Position numbers and translations under genes: made by a program. The notes under the pieces are model-generated. The model was given only the letters and a program-made list of their open reading frames with translations. It was not told the origin of the DNA and made no database searches. Shown one piece after another: positions 10,902 through 18,840 of a stretch of DNA of 32,756 bases (position 1 is the stretch's first letter; every line of letters begins with the position of its first letter). Origin of the DNA: Clostridia bacterium (lineage in GTDB: Bacteria > Bacillota > Clostridia > Christensenellales > CAG-138); the NCBI GenBank assembly GCA_017395105.1, contig JAFPWD010000031.1:1-32756 (forward strand). Reading direction: 5' to 3'.

Positions 10902-11094
10902 TAGTTACGCTCAGAAAAAATCAATATATTTAAGAGTTTTGTTCTTTGCAGCCCATTTCGCAAAAAGCTCGGTATAATATATTGCCTCTTGTTCTTTAAC
11001 AAGTGGCTAAAGTGTGGTAAAATTGAATCAGCTTTTGCGCGTTTTCCCTATCGGAAAGCGGTGCGAACGTGAAATTTCCCAAAGGAGAAAAACC
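10902..11094 (+). promoter_or_regulatory. upstream region of the metalloprotease gene
   Basis: The 317-base divergent gap between glmS and the metalloprotease holds the glm promoter on one side. On the other it holds a perfect TATAAT at 10973-10978 for the plus strand, with no convincing -35 at normal spacing (TTGCAG at 10946-10951 is 21 bases away). A small hairpin CTTGTT-CTTT-AACAAG (10988-11003) and the strong site AAAGGAG just before the ATG follow. Nothing else is evident. Confidence 0.45.
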
Positions 11095-13530
11095 ATGAAG
11101 AAGCTTACCGCACTTATCATTGCCATGCTCCTCGTTCTTTCCGTGCTGCCCCTTTCGGCATTCGCAAAGACCGTTGAGCAGCCGAAGCTTGTCAATGCCA
11201 ACGTTGAGTTTGACGACGACGGCAGCGACGGCTACAGCGGCGACTACGTAGTTATCTACAACCCCTCCACCAGTTCCTCCGCCACCGCCTCCACCGGCAA
11301 TATGGCGGGACTTATCGAAACCACCGTCGGCGGCAATTCGATCGGTTATGAACCCGATCGCGCCGTTATGGATCGCCCCTATAAATTAGATGTTGACGGC
11401 ATTATCGCCGAGCAGAACGAGGCCGCCGGCATCCCCGCAGATCCTGTGACTGACGGAGCCGTTATCGCCACATCCTTCAACGTTGGCGACACGCACAACT
11501 TCCAAATCAACAGCACCTACTGCCCCCTCCCCTCCACGAGCGTTCAGTTCAAGGTGCTTGCCAAAGGCGATCATTGCTACATTTGGACTCCCACCTCCAC
11601 CGCCGCCAATGTATACCCCCTCGATCAGATCGACGAGAGCTTCGGTGATATGGCCGCTGCGGAGTTTGACTCCAAGTTCGAGCTTATGCAGTCCTCCTTC
11701 GGCGATCATTCCAACGGCACCAACGGTGACGGCAGGCTGAACATACTTTACTACAACATCGACGACGGCTGGCAGCCCGGCGAAGGCTACGTTGCAGGCT
11801 TCTTCTCCTCGAGCGATCTTTACTACAACGGCATGCCGATCCTCAATATCGACACCTACCCCGGCGTTTACTACGAGCGTGTGAACGGCGAGGTCATCAT
11901 CGATCTTGAGAGCACCTACGGCACGATGGTTCACGAATACCAGCATCTTATCAACTACTCGGCAGGCGGCACCGACACCTGGATCAACGAGTGCATGAGC
12001 GCCGCAGCCGAGGAGATCTGCTACCCCGGCAGCTCGGTTGTTTCCCGTATACAGAGCTGGCTCAACTACAGGTTCTCCACCAATAACGACTGGCTCAACC
12101 CGCCCACCGAGCATGAGTATACCAGCGCCTACAGCCTCCACAAGGGCTACTCGATGTATTCCTGGAGCAACTATCTGAACACGAACGACCTTCTCGCGCT
12201 TTACGCACAGGTTTCGTTCTTTGCGCAGTATATCTACACCCAGCACGGCAACTCCACCTTCCGCGCGCTTCTTGAAAAGCTTACGGACGGTTTCAGCTTC
12301 CCCAACGCGCTTCAGAACGTTACCGGACAGAATGCATCGGATTTCGTTCGCAATTTCAGGATCGCGCTTACCGCGAACACAACTCAGGAAATCGAGGACG
12401 GTATCTATGGCTTCGTGCCGCAGGAAGGCTATGATCCCTCTCAGTACCATGACGTTGAGAATATGTACGACCTTCTCGCGCCCCTCGTGTTCACCGGCAG
12501 CTCCTGCTCCATCAGCGGCGGCGGTGCTATCACAATTAAGCCCGTCGGCGGCATTTACAATCCCCCCGCAGGCGCAGCCTCTTCGCTTCAGTACATGGGC
12601 ATCACGATCCACGATCAGCCCCTTGAGCCCGTTGCCCTGACCACGCTCACGCTCGATCCCGCTTCGATCGATATGTACGCAGGCGGTTACGCGGTTATCA
12701 GCGCGCTTCGCGAGCCCGTGAACGCAAACAATTACGAGATCAGCTGGACAAGCTCCAACGAAGCGATTGCGACCGTTGTTGGCAACAACCGCAAGGCTAC
12801 CGTTTCCGCAGTTGCCGTCGGCACCGCCGTTATCACCGCGCGCGCCCATGACCTTATCAACGATGTTTACTACACCGCGCAAACGCTCGTGCATGTCAAT
12901 GGCGTTCCCTCCTTCGATGAGGCGGCCAACGTTGAAAACGGCACGCTCGAATTCAATAACTCCGTTGGCACGTATCACTGGGTCGTAGATCCCATAAGCG
13001 ATCCCGGCAGGGTCAGCGTTCGCAGCGACAACCGCGGCGTGAACAGCTCCGACGCGGCGTTCACCGTTACCGTTGCGCTCAACGCAGGCGACGTTGTTTC
13101 CTTCGATTGGAAGGTCAGCAGCGAGGCGAGCTACGATAAGCTCAATTTCTACGTTGACAACAGCGTTCGCAACACCATCCACGGCGAGCAGGATTGGGCA
13201 ACCGTAACCTTCACCGCAACCGCAACAAGGTCTTACACCTTCAAGTGGGAGTTCCATAAGGACGTTTCCACCCACACCGGCGCGGACTGCGGCTGGGTGG
13301 ACAACATCTCCATCCCCGGCTATATCAACGAGGAGCCCGATTATCTCCCCGGCGACGTCAATATGAACGGCACCGTTGAGATGGCGGATGCGCTGATGGC
13401 GCTTCGCGCTGCGATGGGCATTCTTGAGCTTACCGAGCTTCAGACCCTTATCGCCGACATGGACGAGAATGGCACCATTGCCGTTTCCGATGCACTCAGC
13501 ATCATGCGTATATCGATGGGCATAGATTGA
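11095..13530 (+). CDS. secreted M30-like metalloprotease with Ig-like and dockerin modules
   Basis: An 811-residue exported protein. A signal peptide ends near residue 24 (SAFA-K). The catalytic part contains HEYQH at 280-284 with a downstream WINECMSAAAEE (from 296), the layout of M30 hyicolysin-type zinc peptidases in which a later Glu is the third ligand. Residues about 513-603 are a bacterial Ig-like (BIG2) domain (WTSSNEAIATV). Residues about 604-742 form a beta-sandwich resembling MAM or carbohydrate-binding modules (GDVVSFDWKVSSE). Residues 752-811 are a type I dockerin with two calcium loops, DVNMNGTVEMAD and DMDENGTIAVSD. The start at 11095 is fixed by AAAGGAG and the signal peptide; a GTG at 11014 is in frame but has no site. 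It is monocistronic, with a strong terminator after it. The dockerin should tether the protease to a cohesin scaffold, none of which is in the window. Confidence 0.85.
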   Translation: MKKLTALIIAMLLVLSVLPLSAFAKTVEQPKLVNANVEFDDDGSDGYSGDYVVIYNPSTSSSATASTGNMAGLIETTVGGNSIGYEPDRAVMDRPYKLDVDGIIAEQNEAAGIPADPVTDGAVIATSFNVGDTHNFQINSTYCPLPSTSVQFKVLAKGDHCYIWTPTSTAANVYPLDQIDESFGDMAAAEFDSKFELMQSSFGDHSNGTNGDGRLNILYYNIDDGWQPGEGYVAGFFSSSDLYYNGMPILNIDTYPGVYYERVNGEVIIDLESTYGTMVHEYQHLINYSAGGTDTWINECMSAAAEEICYPGSSVVSRIQSWLNYRFSTNNDWLNPPTEHEYTSAYSLHKGYSMYSWSNYLNTNDLLALYAQVSFFAQYIYTQHGNSTFRALLEKLTDGFSFPNALQNVTGQNASDFVRNFRIALTANTTQEIEDGIYGFVPQEGYDPSQYHDVENMYDLLAPLVFTGSSCSISGGGAITIKPVGGIYNPPAGAASSLQYMGITIHDQPLEPVALTTLTLDPASIDMYAGGYAVISALREPVNANNYEISWTSSNEAIATVVGNNRKATVSAVAVGTAVITARAHDLINDVYYTAQTLVHVNGVPSFDEAANVENGTLEFNNSVGTYHWVVDPISDPGRVSVRSDNRGVNSSDAAFTVTVALNAGDVVSFDWKVSSEASYDKLNFYVDNSVRNTIHGEQDWATVTFTATATRSYTFKWEFHKDVSTHTGADCGWVDNISIPGYINEEPDYLPGDVNMNGTVEMADALMALRAAMGILELTELQTLIADMDENGTIAVSDALSIMRISMGID

Positions 13531-13562
13531 TATCTGCGCTATAAAACCGAACAAATCATAAA

Positions 13563-13601
13563 GCGCCGCCGCACGGATTTCCGTGCGGCGGTGCCGTTTT
13601 T
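13563..13601 (+). terminator. Rho-independent terminator of the metalloprotease gene
   Basis: A 14-bp stem (13563-13576 with 13581-13594, one G-T pair) with an ATTT loop is followed at once by a GTTTTT run. It lies 33 bases past the stop codon, between converging genes. Confidence 0.9.
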
Positions 13602-13686
13602 ATCTCCGGTCAATGAGCACATCACTTACGAGGATCGACTATAAGTGCCGAGTGCCTTTTGCCATGCCGAGCGCGTTTCAAACACT

Positions 13687-16600
13687 TCAGTCAAAGAGCT
13701 TGCTCATGAAATACGCCCGCATTTCCTCCAATGCGTACGGTAAATAAACGTTGACACTTTCCCTGTCCGCATTGTATGTTGAAAGTATGATATTCATCTC
13801 TTCAAGACTGATACGCGGAAGCCCGGAGAAGTCATCAAATATGCTGTTCGTTACTTCCGTAAGTATGCAGCAGTATTCATCGTGATCGTGTCGTTTGGTG
13901 ATATAAACAACCAAATAGTCCGCGTGCAGACCGAAGTACTGCGGATAGGAAAGGCGAAGCTGGGCTTCAACCGTACCGAGATCGGGCGAAGTGTAGAGAA
14001 CCGCGCCGTTCTCGACCGTTACGAACATCGCCGGTCTATTGAAGCTTACGAAGTAGCGTATAGTGCCGTTTTCATTCTCGATCACCTTGGCAAGCCTCAG
14101 GCTCGATACCGACGCAGCTTCCGAGTAGCCGGCGGCAAGAAGGTATTCCCGCGCCGCCTCTATCGCATCGTTCAACGCCGATTCGTCCATAAAGGCTGAG
14201 GGATCGGAAAAGACCCCTATCACGCTGTCGCCGCTGACGAGCACATAGTTGCGGTCGGTATTATAAAGCAGCAGCTCTTTGGGAATGTAAACAAGATAGC
14301 TTCTCACGCCGCTGCTGTCGATGCTCTCCTTGATGATGTGAACGCCGGTATAGTTGCCGATGCCGACGTACTCGCCCGCCTCGGCCAGCGCCCTGTTGCT
14401 TTCAAGCACATAGTTTGCGTACTCGAGCTTTTCCCTAACGCTTCCTTCGCGCGGGAAGTCAACTCGAGCGCCAAGCACAAAGTCGAGAACAGAGAGGCTT
14501 TCGAAGCAAAGCGGATCGCGCTGAGTGAACATGCAAAACGGCAGGGAAACAGCGGGTGAACCGCCATCCGATGTGGGCGCGGCGGGCAGATTGCTTGTGA
14601 TAGTCAGACCGTTTGAATTTATAACGCATTCACAGCCCGTGGTGTCGATATGCTCGCCGCTTTCGCGGTCGAAGAGCCCGAATTTTGTCAAGCCGCAGTA
14701 CGCATCGGCGCTCATAAGCAGCGTTCCTCTTTCAAGAAGAGCGTTTACTTCGCCCGCAAACTCAAGCACCTTGTCGATATCGTTCGGCTGAGCGGGCACG
14801 CTGCCGTGAACCGTGAAATTGATGCTGCGCTCCTCGGCGCAGATCAGTGCATCGTTTTTAACGGTATAGAGCTTGTACGAATACTCGCATTCACCGCCGC
14901 TTGCATAGCCGGGCTTATAAACCATGATGCACCTTCCGATGCCTTCCTTTTCAGTCAGGATATAGCTGCGATTCCATACACGCGAATAGCCTATCATATC
15001 CAGACCGCCGAGGTTTTCGCCGTTCTCTCCGATAAGATAAGGTATGGTGTACGATTCGTTTTTGAGCAGTGCAAGGCTCAGGCAGAATCTTTCCTCCGCT
15101 CCGTCGCCGTCGAGGTCAACAGCCCAATAATCGGCCGAATTCTCCGCGCTCTCATAAACGATCTCGCAGTTCGGCAGCATCTGTGAAAGCGAGAGAACAT
15201 GGTTCTCATCGAGCCAGTTATCGCTCAGCATAAGCTGCTCGAGCGAGTTAAGATAGCGAAGCGAATAAACGTTTGAGATCCAGTTATTGTTGAGCGAAAG
15301 CACCCTAAGCTTCGGGAACAGCCCTTCCTCGCAAAGCTGTTCTATGCCGTTGATCTCGTTGTTGTCAAGAGTAAGCGTTTCAAGCTCGGTAAGCCTCCTA
15401 AGAGGATACAGATTGCTTATCGAGTTGCCGCTCAGATCCAGATCTTTAAGCTTCGTCAGCGGCTCGATAAACGAAATATCACCGATACCGCAGTTTTCAA
15501 GCATCAGATAGCGCAGCTCGGTAAAATTCCCGAGCGTATCCAAGCCCTCCAAGCTAACTCCGTTGCCGCCGAGAATGAGCTGATGAAGCCCCGTGAGACC
15601 ACCGAGCTGTGCAAGATCACTCACGCCGCAGTTATACAGCCAAAGGGAGTGAAGGCTCGTCAGCTCGGAAAGCGGCTCAATGTCGATCGCCTGCGATCCG
15701 AAGCGCTTATTGAGCTTAAAAGTTTCGAGATTCTTGAATTTCGCAACGTCCGAAATGTCGCTTATCTCCGAGAAGCTGCTGTTAGTTGAAAAGCCGAAGG
15801 AAAGGCTCGTTACGCCGAGCAGCTCTTCATCGGTGATGATATTACCGGCATCATCGGAGCGAGTTTTTCTGTACTCCACTTCGAATACGGGATCGGCGAA
15901 CACTACGCCTACGGGCTCTTCGGCGTTAGGTGCAGCGGTCGGCTCGGCGGTCGGTGCGGTCATTGGCGCTATGGGTGCGCCGGACTGTTTCGGATCGGTT
16001 TCCGGAGCGTTCGCTGGGTTCGCAACGCAGGCGGCGAGCACCGCAAGCGAGAGAGCGAGCGCGATGATCGTTACGATAAACTTCGGTTTTTTATAATTCA
16101 TAGCGTTTTTAATGCGGCTCCTTACTCCGCTTTCGCCAAAAGCGAGGGGGCTTGGTGAGGGAAACTGCTTGCTGACGGCAAAGCTCAAGAGAGTCGATGA
16201 GTATTCGCTTCTGATATCGAGCTTTTCGCCCAAGACCTTTTCATCGCAGCTCATCTCCATATCCTTATTCGAAAGAAAGAACGCGAGCCAGCAGAGCGGG
16301 TTGAACCAATGCAGCGCAAGCAGCAGGAAAGCAAAGACCTTTATGATATGGTCGCCGCGCCTTATATGGTATCTTTCATGCGCGAGCACATAGCTGCATG
16401 CCTCATCGCTAAGACCGTATGGAATATAGATCTTCGGACGGATGAAGCCGAGGATGAACGGCGAGCGCACAAGCTCGCTTTGATAGATACTGCCTTCGAG
16501 CCGAACGGCTGTGGACATTTTGCGATACATTTTGATGTAGCCGATAACGCTGTATGCGATAAGTGCTATCATTCCGACTATCCAAAGCACGACTGCGGCC

Positions 16601-16785
16601 GTCATCAGCACCTCGACAATACCGACTGACGAGGCCGCCTGCGCGGCGCTGCCCGCTCCGCCCGAGCCGCCGATATTCTCGGTCAAACCCGCGATAACGC
16701 CCTGAGTTGCGGCGGGCGCGGAGGTCGCTTCATGCACCGCAGCGGGTATGCTTGTTTGAACAGCATGCGGTGTTGCTTGCGGCAT
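13687..16785 (-). CDS. M56 (BlaR1-type) membrane metalloprotease with leucine-rich-repeat sensor, main part
   Basis: A 1032-codon open frame that contains most of a BlaR1/MecR1-like sensor protease. In order: Thr/Pro/Ala-rich loop; a transmembrane helix; the M56 zinc motif AHERYH (16366-16380) with NPLCWLAFF and the DEKVLGEKLD segment; a fourth membrane helix (FIVTIIALALSLAVLAACVA); a Pro/Thr-rich stalk; then about eight 22-residue SDS22/internalin-type leucine-rich repeats (for example LKDLDLSGNSISNLYPLRRL). A DLDGDGAEERF segment and an uncharacterised domain of about 450 residues complete it. BlaR1 has a penicillin-binding domain in this place; here it is replaced. The N-terminus is incomplete: the first helices lie in another frame at 16842-17084, so a frameshift separates the parts. 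The ATG at 16785 has no ribosome binding site and is not a credible start. The repressor gene blaI lies just upstream. Confidence 0.8.
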   Translation of the reverse strand: MPQATPHAVQTSIPAAVHEATSAPAATQGVIAGLTENIGGSGGAGSAAQAASSVGIVEVLMTAAVVLWIVGMIALIAYSVIGYIKMYRKMSTAVRLEGSIYQSELVRSPFILGFIRPKIYIPYGLSDEACSYVLAHERYHIRRGDHIIKVFAFLLLALHWFNPLCWLAFFLSNKDMEMSCDEKVLGEKLDIRSEYSSTLLSFAVSKQFPSPSPLAFGESGVRSRIKNAMNYKKPKFIVTIIALALSLAVLAACVANPANAPETDPKQSGAPIAPMTAPTAEPTAAPNAEEPVGVVFADPVFEVEYRKTRSDDAGNIITDEELLGVTSLSFGFSTNSSFSEISDISDVAKFKNLETFKLNKRFGSQAIDIEPLSELTSLHSLWLYNCGVSDLAQLGGLTGLHQLILGGNGVSLEGLDTLGNFTELRYLMLENCGIGDISFIEPLTKLKDLDLSGNSISNLYPLRRLTELETLTLDNNEINGIEQLCEEGLFPKLRVLSLNNNWISNVYSLRYLNSLEQLMLSDNWLDENHVLSLSQMLPNCEIVYESAENSADYWAVDLDGDGAEERFCLSLALLKNESYTIPYLIGENGENLGGLDMIGYSRVWNRSYILTEKEGIGRCIMVYKPGYASGGECEYSYKLYTVKNDALICAEERSINFTVHGSVPAQPNDIDKVLEFAGEVNALLERGTLLMSADAYCGLTKFGLFDRESGEHIDTTGCECVINSNGLTITSNLPAAPTSDGGSPAVSLPFCMFTQRDPLCFESLSVLDFVLGARVDFPREGSVREKLEYANYVLESNRALAEAGEYVGIGNYTGVHIIKESIDSSGVRSYLVYIPKELLLYNTDRNYVLVSGDSVIGVFSDPSAFMDESALNDAIEAAREYLLAAGYSEAASVSSLRLAKVIENENGTIRYFVSFNRPAMFVTVENGAVLYTSPDLGTVEAQLRLSYPQYFGLHADYLVVYITKRHDHDEYCCILTEVTNSIFDDFSGLPRISLEEMNIILSTYNADRESVNVYLPYALEEMRAYFMSKLFD

Positions 16786-16841
16786 GGGCGTTATATTCGG
16801 CAGAGGCGTATTTATCGTTATCGGCGCCTGCGTGTAGTGAA

Positions 16842-17084
16842 CTATGCTCGGAATGTATTCGAGGCATTTTCGGCGGTGTTCGCGGCCTTTGGAACGAAGT
16901 TAAACAGGCTTATCGCCGATTTGATGCTCACGGGGCAACAGAGTCGAAACGCCGCTGCGCCCCAGAGAAGATATGACCATTTCTTCGGCGCTTTTTTAAG
17001 GATCAGCCTTGCAAGCAGGATCGCAAGGATCACTATTGCGCCTGATATGCTCATATTCAGAACGGTCAGCGTGAATTCTTTCAT
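16842..17084 (-). CDS. N-terminal part of the M56 sensor protease, separated by a frameshift
   Basis: Eighty codons beginning MKEFTLTVLNMSISGAIVIL with a well placed GGGAGG eight bases upstream (an in-frame GTG at 17093 overlaps that site). It encodes the first membrane helix and the typical M56 segment WSYLLWGAAAFRLCCPVSI, then hits a TAG at 16842-16844. The next reading frame carries the expected continuation (EYIPSIVHYTQAPITIN). Together the two parts would give about 1133 codons. A one-base deletion, perhaps in the A4 run opposite 16867-16870, would explain it. It could be a true mutation, an assembly error or, less likely, programmed -1 frameshifting. Confidence 0.75.
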   Translation of the reverse strand: MKEFTLTVLNMSISGAIVILAILLARLILKKAPKKWSYLLWGAAAFRLCCPVSIKSAISLFNFVPKAANTAENASNTFRA

Positions 17085-17099
17085 GATCTTCACCTCCCG

Positions 17100-17459
17100 C
17101 TACTTTTTATGGCTGTCGATAAGCTTTTTAAGCTCCTCCGCCTCGTCCTCGGAGATGGTCTTACCGCCGAAGAACGAAATGAGGAAGCCCGGAAGCGAGC
17201 CGCCGAAATCGCGGTTTATGAAAAACTCGCTCTCCTTTTTTTGAACCGAGGTTTTCGGCACAGCCGATGTAACGGTTGAAGCCTCGTTTTTCGCAAAACC
17301 GTTTTCGCACATCTTTCTCAGCATGGTGTAGGTGGTGGACTTCTTCCAGCCAAGCTCCCTTTCGCAGAGCTTCACAAGCTCGGTCGAGCCCACAGGCTCG
17401 TTTGACCAGATAACGTCCATAAAGCGGTAATCGCTTTCGCAGAGCAGTTTTTCAAACAT
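17100..17459 (-). CDS. BlaI/MecI family transcriptional repressor
   Basis: A 119-residue winged-helix repressor. The N-terminal half has the family pattern: DYRFMDVIWSNEPVGSTEL, then the recognition helix region GWKKSTTYTMLRKMCENGF. The C-terminal half is a short dimerisation helix pair (SEDEAEELKKLIDSHKK) joined by a linker, the region cut or affected by the partner protease in the BlaR1/BlaI system. The gene ends just before the M56 gene, whose ribosome binding site overlaps the spacer. Two 16-bp dyads in the promoter fit autoregulation. Nothing indicates beta-lactam resistance: no beta-lactamase or PBP2a is present, and the paired sensor lacks a penicillin-binding domain. Confidence 0.92.
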   Translation of the reverse strand: MFEKLLCESDYRFMDVIWSNEPVGSTELVKLCERELGWKKSTTYTMLRKMCENGFAKNEASTVTSAVPKTSVQKKESEFFINRDFGGSLPGFLISFFGGKTISEDEAEELKKLIDSHKK

Positions 17460-17481
17460 ATTTTTAAACCTCTCCGGTTAA

Positions 17482-17497
17482 GTTTAGTTTTATAAAC
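17482..17497. promoter_or_regulatory. candidate BlaI operator, proximal site
   Basis: GTTTAGTTTTATAAAC, an imperfect dyad (one mismatch in the six-base arms, four-base centre). It has the same arm sequence and size as the dyad 26 bases away and lies in the blaI leader just downstream of the -10. Confidence 0.5.
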
Positions 17498-17506
17498 CTC
17501 GTGTGC

Positions 17507-17535
17507 AGTTTATCATTATAAACCAATCTTGTCAA
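17507..17535 (-). promoter_or_regulatory. blaI promoter with overlapping operator dyad
   Basis: On the minus strand TTGACA (17535-17530) and TAAACT (17512-17507) are 17 bases apart. The dyad GTTTATCATTATAAAC (17508-17523) has perfect six-base arms and a four-base centre. It covers most of the spacer and the -10, so a bound repressor would block RNA polymerase. A second copy lies at 17482-17497, about 2.5 helical turns away centre to centre (26 bases). Confidence 0.6.
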
Positions 17536-17574
17536 GTCCTTTTTGAAAATTGTTTATCGATTTGTTGACAAGTC

Positions 17575-17602
17575 AAAAGCAGCCCGAGCTCGAGCTGCTT
17601 TT
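17575..17602 (-). terminator. terminator after deoB
   Basis: On the minus strand a 9-bp stem (AAAAGCAGC / GCTGCTTTT) with a 10-base loop ends in TTTT, 20 bases past the deoB stop. It separates the seven-gene operon from the blaI promoter. Confidence 0.7.
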
Positions 17603-17621
17603 CGATGCACTATATTGTTTT

Positions 17622-18788
17622 TTATTCTATATTAAGCTTCCCTATAAAGGATTCTCCGCAATTGAAGCCTTCGCCGAGAAGATAATCCACTACGCTTGCG
17701 CCTATATCCGCAAAGGTGGGAAGCGTTCCAAGCGAAACGGGCTGCACCTTTCTTCCCCAAACGAGCACGGGAATGTATTCGCGGCTGTGGTCTGTGCTCG
17801 GCGTGGTGGGATCGCAGCCGTGGTCTGCGGTTATGATAAGCAAATCGTCATCGCTCATGGCGTCCATTATCTCGGGCAGCTTTTTGTCGAAGTATTCAAG
17901 CGCTTCCGCATAGCCCTCAACATTGTTTCTATGGCCGTATAGCGCATCGAAATCCACAAGGTTTGTGAAGATGAAATCTCCCCTGCCCTTCTTCAAAAAT
18001 TCTATCGTGGATTCTATTCCCGTGACGTTGTTCTTAGTGTGATCGACGGTGGTTATGCCCCTATGGCAGAAGATATCCTCTATCTTGCCGATCGCGACGA
18101 CTTCCTTTCCGCGCTCGGTCAATCTGTCGAGTATCGTTTCACCGACGGGCTCAACAGCGAAATCGCGGCGGTTCTCGGTGCGCTTATAATCCCCGTTTGA
18201 GCCGAGGAACGGGCGCGCGATCACCCTTCCTACGAGATTTTCGCCCATGAGTATCTCCCTTGCTATCTCGCACATTTGATAGAGCTTTTCCGGCGGGATC
18301 ACCTCTTCATGCGCCGCGATCTGAAAAACGCTGTCCGCCGAGGTATAGATGATGGGCCTGCCGGTGCGAACATGCTCGTCGCCGAGCTCGTTTATTATGA
18401 CCGTTCCCGAGGCAACGCAGTTTCCGAGCGTTCCCCGATGGATCTTCATTTCAAAATCATTCATTATCGAGCGCGGGAAGCCATCTGGATATGTCTTGAA
18501 CGGCACCTCCATCTGCAGCCCCGCCATCTCCCAATGCCCGCTCGTGGTATCCTTGGCATGGGTCAGCTCCGCAGCTCTGCCGTATGCTGCTCTCGGGTGC
18601 TCCGAAGCAGGCATACGCGAATTTTCGATGTTTCCGAGACCGAGCGAAAGCAGGTTTTTAATGTTCATCGGACGCTCGGCGTAGGTGTTTCCGAGGGTAT
18701 GGGAGCCGACATCGCCAAAATCCGCAGCATCGGGCAGCTCGCCTATGCCAACGCTGTCTAAAACTATGATGATTGCACGTTTTTTCAT
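17622..18788 (-). CDS. deoB: phosphopentomutase
   Basis: Interconverts ribose 5-phosphate (or deoxyribose 5-phosphate) and the 1-phosphate (EC 5.4.2.7), linking nucleoside breakdown with the pentose pathway. The 388-residue length is normal. Alkaline-phosphatase-superfamily features are present: the N-terminal metal-site segment IIVLDSVGIGELPDA (Asp11), the phosphorylated Thr region AKDTTSGHWE, and the C-terminal metal ligands in FTNLVDFDALYGHR and ITADHGCDPTTPSTDHSRE. The start at 18788 has GGAGG upstream; the frame remains open further upstream but overlaps ybaK. It is the last gene of the minus-strand operon. No nucleoside phosphorylase gene lies beside it. Confidence 0.97.
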   Translation of the reverse strand: MKKRAIIIVLDSVGIGELPDAADFGDVGSHTLGNTYAERPMNIKNLLSLGLGNIENSRMPASEHPRAAYGRAAELTHAKDTTSGHWEMAGLQMEVPFKTYPDGFPRSIMNDFEMKIHRGTLGNCVASGTVIINELGDEHVRTGRPIIYTSADSVFQIAAHEEVIPPEKLYQMCEIAREILMGENLVGRVIARPFLGSNGDYKRTENRRDFAVEPVGETILDRLTERGKEVVAIGKIEDIFCHRGITTVDHTKNNVTGIESTIEFLKKGRGDFIFTNLVDFDALYGHRNNVEGYAEALEYFDKKLPEIMDAMSDDDLLIITADHGCDPTTPSTDHSREYIPVLVWGRKVQPVSLGTLPTFADIGASVVDYLLGEGFNCGESFIGKLNIE

Positions 18789-18840
18789 GTTTTTCCTCCA
18801 AAAATTACTTGATTTTGAATTACTTTCCCAGATTCCCCGA

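Follow-up and report, generated by a model that had tools for sequence, protein, structure and literature searches.

What might a membrane protease of the BlaR1 type do with an array of leucine-rich repeats (LRR) in place of a penicillin-binding domain? The question is raised by a receptor gene (13687 to 17084, reverse strand) and the repressor gene before it on contig JAFPWD010000031.1 of a Clostridia bacterium; the whole stretch of 32,756 nucleotides that was analysed is called the window here. A first-pass annotation made from the letters of the DNA had proposed a relay of an M56 protease and a BlaI repressor in which an LRR ectodomain replaces the penicillin-binding domain. This proposal holds, as a BlaI partner (PF03965) is present and NCBIfam and Pfam profiles detected no penicillin-binding or class-D-lactamase-like sensor domain in the window protein. 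The idea of one odd protein has to be given up: LRR_4 is found in 14 of the 98 related ectodomains compared, and the receptor is instead one version of a modular receptor class. We conclude that it is a real, recurrent variant of the M56/BlaI relay, with a BlaR1-like inner half, and that by its sensor it is not a BlaR1. The domain make-up, the catalytic residues, the BlaI partner with the position of its cut site, the operator pair and the lack of a second exact one, the low dN/dS, the recurrent LRR fusion and the lipoprotein-type leaders of homologous modules can all be read from the sequence. The fuller reading, on which we are evenly divided, is that of an M56/BlaI regulated-proteolysis receptor with the LRR array and two further modules, C1 and C2, outside the cell, which would be self-regulated through paired dyads and act as a self-amplifying switch. 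The features on which this account draws are the following (ORF, open reading frame; TM, transmembrane helix; aa, amino acids).

13687..16785, (-): main receptor ORF of 1032 aa with TM3, M56 protease, TM4 and ectodomain; frame open from 16899
16845..17084, (-): N-terminal piece of the receptor, in another frame, with TM1, TM2 and the first part of outer loop 1; start codon chosen by eye
16531..16623, (-): TM3, by hydropathy, in a hydrophobic stretch of residues 48-87
16366..16380, (-): zinc-protease motif HERYH, residues 136-140, a sequence motif aligned to BlaR1 (8exp)
16255-16257, (-): E177, presumed third zinc ligand, with an Asp four residues further on
16024..16083, (-): TM4, by hydropathy (stretch of residues 232-260), ending in LAAC (Cys253 at 16027-16029)
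15166..15795, (-): leucine-rich repeats, residues 331-540, of the internalin/SDS22-like 22-residue type, from LRR_4, PDB matches and the repeat pattern
14605..15153, (-): C1 module, residues 545-727, found again in further M56 proteins and behind the lipoprotein-type leaders of other ORFs
13690..14604, (-): C2, residues 728-1032, without a family match and similar in its first part to the L239 ORF
17100..17459, (-): BlaI/MecI-family repressor of 119 aa (PF03965, E 8.3e-17, 62.0 bits against a cut-off of 22.6)
17530..17535, (-): -35-like TTGACA of the blaI promoter, by eye, with a 17-base spacer to TAAACT at 17507-17512
17508..17523, (-): putative operator O1, perfect dyad GTTTATAATGATAAAC, lying across spacer and -10-like hexamer, identical in L108 and L101
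17482..17497, (-): putative operator O2, GTTTA-N6-TAAAC, 26 bp from O1, by pattern search

Loci, genomes and contigs other than the window are given by our own handles (L, G and C). The protease half is that of an M56 protease with HERYH, as had been claimed: Peptidase M56 (PF05569) matches residues 49-226 of the 1032-aa ORF with E 6.2e-39 (134.4 bits against a cut-off of 31). However, the gene does not run in the single frame from 13687 to 17084 that the first-pass annotation had assumed. The main frame holds the C-terminal two thirds of the protease, positions 2-73 of the M56 profile map to 16848-17066 in an 85-aa open frame that is not the main one, and the gene as assembled is thus split by an overlooked frameshift near 16,845-16,899, in the outer loop that connects TM2 with TM3. 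Its origin may be either a real mutation or an assembly error. The four helices previously counted are there if both frames are taken together, with TM1-2 in the N-terminal frame (TM2 being weak by hydropathy) and TM3-4 in the main one, but not in the main frame alone. In a relative, L006/L108 (RUG13931, G009), the receptor occupies a single open frame of 1142 aa, with 91% identity over 1032 aa.

A profile of 26 relatives matches the solved structure of BlaR1 (8exp) over residues 4-323, into the last helix (E 4e-20), and in the 26-row alignment of the relatives' protease half H, E, H, E, D and one Arg are invariant. BlaR1 has its N and C termini and its sensor outside the cell, and its HExxH motif sits in a re-entrant helix (PMC9834060). 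In the main frame of the window receptor a further hydrophobic stretch follows HERYH (residues 147-171), and hydropathy gave no above-threshold stretch past TM4. A cytoplasmic LRR region had been named beforehand as an observation that would speak against the proposal. Instead, the LRR region very likely lies outside the cell, because the M56 half aligns with a BlaR1 of known topology and because LRR-C1 and C1 modules occur behind lipoprotein-type leaders in other ORFs.

The estimate of about eight repeats was a fair one. Seven strict LRRs start at residues 378, 400, 424, 446, 468, 493 and 515 (spacing 22, 24, 22, 22, 25 and 22), and by eye there are one or two degenerate ones ahead of them. 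In 2000 shuffles of the ectodomain there was at most one strict match, and a looser pattern was observed 7 times against at most 5 in the shuffled sequences. PF12799 LRR_4 matches the receptor with E 1.3e-19. The best PDB matches of the LRR region are to internalin A, and the InlA model reached 72.2 bits against a cut-off of 1600, a score at which the protein does not count as an internalin. The BlaR1 family models, run on the 1032-aa frame only, also stayed under their cut-offs (NF000326, 71.4 against 400 bits; NF033109, 22 against 1200).

Residues 545-1032 (488 aa) correspond to what had been described as an unknown domain of some 450 residues; they indeed have no family match, but the C1 part recurs elsewhere and is in this sense not unique. 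For C2, Pfam returned no family (best E 0.038, below the cut-off), and C1 is likewise without a family match. C1 is also present in the LRR-bearing M56 proteins L133, L096, L117 and L112, as well as in L123, an M56 protein in which no LRR pattern was found, and the last part of C2 weakly matches L110. Moreover, these modules occur without a protease. Downstream of the M56 gene of L115, by 29 bp, lies a 473-aa open frame (906-2324) in which LRRs and C1 follow what by eye is a lipoprotein-type leader, and ORF 1503-2753 of L239 (G007) combines a lipoprotein-type leader, again by eye, with a 30% match to window residues 553-855. Since LRR-C1 is fused to M56 in L133 and forms a separate gene in L115, its sister row on the tree described below (98/86), the module exists both fused and free. 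Two other LRR-bearing frames were noticed: that of L241 (G009:C1), by eye a Ser/Thr protein kinase, has an LRR that matches the window close to its end, and a long ORF in L240 (G000:C13) opens, again by eye, with several LRRs of a different type (LSGTSISSLP), after which comes a large portion without LRR appearance.

In the bacterial family, PF05569 matches are found in 78 of 103 genomes. From the matches listed, 100 regions were picked with long open frames favoured and many M56-only genes of about 300 aa left out, so this is not a census. Together with L005 and the window they yielded 109 M56 ORFs, of which 106 have HExxH and 98 have at least 120 aa after TM4. Besides LRR_4, Pfam recognised among these 98 ectodomains DUF6034 and Lipocalin_4 (6 each), DUF5640 (4), RCC1 (3) and Big_14 (2), one each of SBP_bac_5, NAGPA (phosphodiester glycosidase), Beta_helix, RHS_repeat and PG_binding_1, plus other LRR models and a few more. 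A maximum-likelihood tree built from the protease part requires 9 changes of the LRR label, of which starred branches force at least 8; with shuffled labels the number is 13.4, so that some clustering of the label is present too, as near-copies produce it. The LRR rows of this tree, 14 in number, were those with the repeat pattern plus L117 and may differ from the 14 of Pfam; Pfam LRR matches were present in 9 of 10 scanned LRR-pattern rows, L102, at a contig edge, having none. The row nearest to the three-row clade of the window, L136, has no LRR. As the tree forces it, LRRs would have been gained or lost repeatedly in M56 receptors of the family, at least 8 times.

A joining of LRR and M56 only at the window locus, the other finding that had been said to count against the proposal, is ruled out by the LRR_4 count and by the tree, although in L115 LRR-C1 is indeed separate. 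The genome of the window (G000, 68% complete) itself encodes a second M56-BlaI receptor (L005:3105-6230, G000:C46) with a different LRR array of SGC-type repeats, which groups with L109 and L102 and has a lipoprotein-like ORF 59 bp downstream. Outside the family, none of 36 order-level M56 ectodomains had two LRR patterns and four had one. Among 11 further ectodomains, of unchecked family (L009 is the same DNA as the in-family L136), no LRR-M56 protein was found.

The partner of the receptor matches MecI/BlaI structures, and its Ser95-Phe96 aligns with the cleavage position of Staphylococcus aureus BlaI (1sd4), which is Asn101-Phe102 (PMC9834060). At this P1' position 63 of 97 family rows have Phe, 24 Met and 6 Leu. 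BlaI adjoins 89 of the 106 family M56 ORFs, and in 101 it is found within the fetched locus.

The dyad reported at 17508-17523 is present as well. The map of BlaI targets that had been suggested with it was run, with a divided outcome: exact GTTTATN4ATAAAC occurs in G000 at the blaI promoter only, but the wider GTTTA-N6-TAAAC occurs at five places, two of them at the window promoter (reversed control 0), and looser matches exist too. The three other places are C46:6691 (promoter of the second M56-BlaI pair), C14:13318 and C46:21033. Genome-wide searches covered 7 LRR-type genomes, picked because the dyad pair had already been seen upstream (3 form one orthologue group; two dyad types are represented), and 4 non-LRR genomes. 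In all three orthologue-bearing genomes a GTTTA-N6-TAAAC pair 26 bp apart stands at the orthologue promoter, in G009 at no other place (control 8), and the TTGACA/TAAACT layout is repeated by eye upstream in L108 and L101. Likewise, G006, G079, G087 and G090 have exactly two CTCTA-N6-TAGAG sites each, 26 bp apart at the LRR-type promoter (controls 0-3). An exact pair at 26 bp is thus found at 7 of the 14 LRR-type loci, and none of these 7 genomes has a second. The four non-LRR genomes have one GTCTA-N6-TAGAC site each upstream of blaI and an extra one in G069 (controls 0-4). In the whole family, xxxTA-N6-TAxxx dyads are present in 34 of 97 blaI upstream regions, whereas two-base-block shuffles gave a mean of 1.3 and a maximum of 5. 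The exact operator pair was found only at its own promoter in the 7 genomes, the window's own being incomplete, and no search for lactamase genes was made. The exact pairs point to self-regulation, with degenerate targets elsewhere being possible.

We infer repression, BlaI cleavage, ligand sensing and self-amplification as follows. BlaI dimers on the two dyads over their own promoter would hold the two-gene operon down. Binding of a ligand to the ectodomain would shift TM4 and the outer loop, so that the signal reaches the cytoplasmic HERYH protease, which would then cut BlaI at Ser95-Phe96 and lift repression. Because the clear putative operators lie at its own promoter, the receptor itself would be the main product of induction, which would make the system a self-amplifying switch with its own ectodomain on display. 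The usual ligands of LRRs are proteins or peptides, and such a ligand, as the first-pass annotation had proposed it, is a guess from the fold.

Several observations weigh against such a self-regulated switch. Comparison with BlaR1 gave no clear place for an autocleavage site in the receptor: a Phe lies two residues off the aligned position, in a part where the alignment is uncertain. The window copy may be inactive, because its gene is frameshifted in the assembly, which comes from an incomplete genome. An exact pair is missing in the remaining 7 of the 14 LRR-type loci: five of them show a single dyad near blaI, which is exact in L005, L087 and L095 and carries a mismatch in L109 and L102; in L129 there are two mismatched dyads at a distance of 24 bp, and in L133 there is none. 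Single exact dyads exist away from the promoter, in G000 at C14:13318, inside an ORF, and at C46:21033, about 57 bp before a 181-aa ORF, and in G005 at C54 (one in addition to the pair; control 2). Exact-dyad counts do not exceed the controls in some genomes (G009, 2 against 8; G025, 1 against 4), and it is therefore their location rather than their number that is telling. In addition, sites with up to 3 mismatches to O1, counted on both strands against the reversed control, number 46/13 in G000, 47/18 in G005 and 60/21 in G009, an excess of about 2.6- to 3.5-fold in the three genomes, and other places with up to 2 mismatches number at least 3 in G005 and at least 6 in G009. The excess may represent degenerate operators or promoter-like composition. 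Finally, 32 of 98 M56 genes are followed within 100 bp by an ORF on the same strand, as counted with a rough ORF picker, and 6 of these ORFs start in a lipoprotein-like manner by eye (L005, L111, L115, L122, L129 and L140).

Some of these counts would fit a receptor with many targets, whose BlaI also represses distant genes via degenerate operators, for example that of a secreted dockerin-bearing peptidase. The classical Bla system controls resistance genes (PMC9834060), and the sites with up to 3 mismatches over the control, those with up to 2 in G005 and G009, and the extra exact dyad before the 181-aa ORF in G000 all agree with this possibility, as does the convergent peptidase gene that adjoins the system in L006 too. 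However, in G000 no other site with up to 2 mismatches to O1 was present among the matches listed, each of the 7 genomes searched has its exact pair at the LRR-type promoter alone, and the G005 orthologue has other flanks. One palindromic 3-mismatch site shared by the listings of G000, G005 and G009 (GTTTATCACGATAAGC type) was rejected as a candidate operator, as it overlaps the start of a coding frame in G000. We regard a many-target regulon as possible but rather doubtful.

A different view of the receptor starts from the end of TM4. The lipobox is the motif that closes a hydrophobic stretch in substrates of signal peptidase II. If TM4 served as a lipoprotein leader, the M56 part would also have the role of placing and maturing a surface LRR lipoprotein: this peptidase would release LRR-C1-C2 as an adhesin or binding protein with a lipid anchor, and sensing would be secondary. 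In 83 of the 98 proteins TM4 has a Cys at its outer end, preceded in 54 of those 83 by Ala, Gly or Ser. The loose lipobox pattern fits 54 of 98 at this place, compared with 12 of 279 windows placed on the hydrophobic stretches that precede HExxH and with 12.2 +/- 3.2 (maximum 22) in 500 shuffles, and the strict one fits 23 of 98, against 5 of 279 control windows and 5.5 +/- 2.2 (maximum 14) in shuffles. LRR types fit the loose pattern in 13 of 14 cases and the others in 41 of 84 (Fisher p 0.0026); neither this test nor the counts are corrected for kinship. TM4 plus linker of the window (about residues 202-316) matches nine non-M56 places of the genus among the matches listed, and the seven that were fetched (L232-L238) all begin with lipoprotein-type leaders by eye, although such matches may reflect composition. 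The genome of the window has an LspA gene. There is also a precedent for cleavage, since in S. aureus the signal peptidase SpsB cuts the linker that follows the last helix of BlaR1, at Gly331-Gln332, with shedding of the sensor (PMC9834060). That site is near the position of the lipobox here, with an alignment that stops at residue 323, short of Gly331-Gln332. Less favourable is the residue before the Cys, which in 29 of 83 is not Ala, Gly or Ser and in 18 is Val, unlike a lipobox, as in the frequent form AVCFLTNPK. In order-level M56 proteins of other families, just 11 of 36 fit the loose pattern, and the LAAC of the window is internal, after TM4, so that the protein is not a lipoprotein by its N-terminal signal peptide. 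It is our hypothesis that cleavage by signal peptidase II at this point would leave the released ectodomain attached to the cell; that this anchored protein is the principal purpose of the receptor seems to us unlikely, although worth some weight. As a separate observation, L159 (G030:C26) contains three successive M56 genes, each with BlaI, in which TM4 is followed by the lipobox-like motif TTAC.

Both lines meet in a wider proposal, which we put forward as speculative and improbable in its full form: the M56/BlaI pairs of the family would be self-contained surface switches, with their own operator codes, acting chiefly on their own promoters, and exchangeable ectodomains, many of them turned into lipoproteins at TM4 by signal peptidase II. 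If so, receptor, regulator and output would be one locus, sensor and protease would be parted after synthesis, and two lineages would have two dyads exactly 26 bp apart.

Decay of the gene, with a frameshift that marks lost function and an LRR receptor unused in this strain, would explain the two frames of the assembly. The values of dN/dS are low, 0.14-0.35 for the 1032-aa frame against L108 and 0.11-0.43 against the G005 pieces, but it must be taken into account that a recent break would leave dN/dS unchanged. Moreover, O1 is identical to that of relatives, the orthologue is in one frame, and a single error in an assembly of this completeness would look alike, which makes decay quite improbable. 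A true sensor of beta-lactams or other cell-wall antibiotics of the BlaR1 type is very improbable indeed, since the homologous protease half, the BlaI partner and the room that C1 and C2 leave for an unrecognised sensor stand against 98 ectodomains with no beta-lactam-sensor model in 18 NCBIfam families and no transpeptidase among the 25 Pfam families listed of 28.

The flanks of the locus agree with a small conserved unit. Window and L006 share the order deoB - blaI - receptor - convergent peptidase, where the gene upstream of blaI is presumably deoB. As the next gene downstream is convergent, the operon of the window consists of blaI and the receptor. In G005, the 220 bases 5' of blaI differ by eye, except for the promoter, and a lipoprotein-like ORF of 611 aa follows the receptor; because these flanks differ from those of window and L006, the conserved unit is made up of operators, blaI and receptor. 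The convergent neighbour (window 11014-13530, (+), 838 aa), which also adjoins the system in L006, has Big_2 and dockerin matches over the cut-off and a weak Peptidase_MA_2 match below it. Over window 11014-18791, synonymous divergence from L006/L108 is patchy (deoB 0.315, blaI 0.085, M56 0.26, LRR 0.09, start of the peptidase 0.098), which suggests recombination between the two lineages. Recombination specific to the ectodomain, which the low values of LRR, C1 and C2 might have indicated, is rejected, as blaI and the peptidase start are also low.

In the literature that we have seen in part, M56/BlaI signalling is described as a switch for beta-lactam resistance. If the self-regulated receptor is real, this relay would be a general receptor platform with interchangeable outer domains. 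Sensor domains are likewise interchangeable in histidine kinases. The operators would be distinct enough in some lineages for regulon searches within a genome, and the lipobox at TM4 bears on the communication between outer domain and protease and on why BlaR1 itself is cut by a signal peptidase nearby. The paired private operators and this lipobox are the parts that a specialist would not have expected. Among the titles listed from the open-licence literature, none describes an LRR-bearing M56 receptor; domain databases may list the architecture.

Compared with known systems, the receptor shares with BlaR1/MecR1-BlaI/MecI of S. aureus an M56 half with HExxH...E...D, a BlaI partner and a sensor placed after the last helix, and its BlaI shares with that of S. 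aureus the Phe at the aligned P1' position. It differs from S. aureus BlaR1 in having LRR-C1-C2 instead of a class-D-lactamase-like sensor, in a longer outer loop 1 (by eye) and in a lipobox-like motif near the signal peptidase site of BlaR1; unlike in the S. aureus Bla system, exact-site searches revealed no clear second target gene for the window BlaI. Other M56 proteins of the family resemble it in the protease half, the BlaI neighbour, the Cys at the end of TM4 and the dyads upstream of blaI, whereas their ectodomains are RCC1, lipocalin, solute-binding, beta-helix, DUF6034 and others. The lipoprotein-type ORFs of L115 (906-2324) and L239 (1503-2753) have LRR-C1 or C1 modules unfused to M56. 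With internalins and SDS22-like proteins the receptor has in common the 22-residue type of LRR, which in the window, unlike in those proteins, is carried on a membrane protease.

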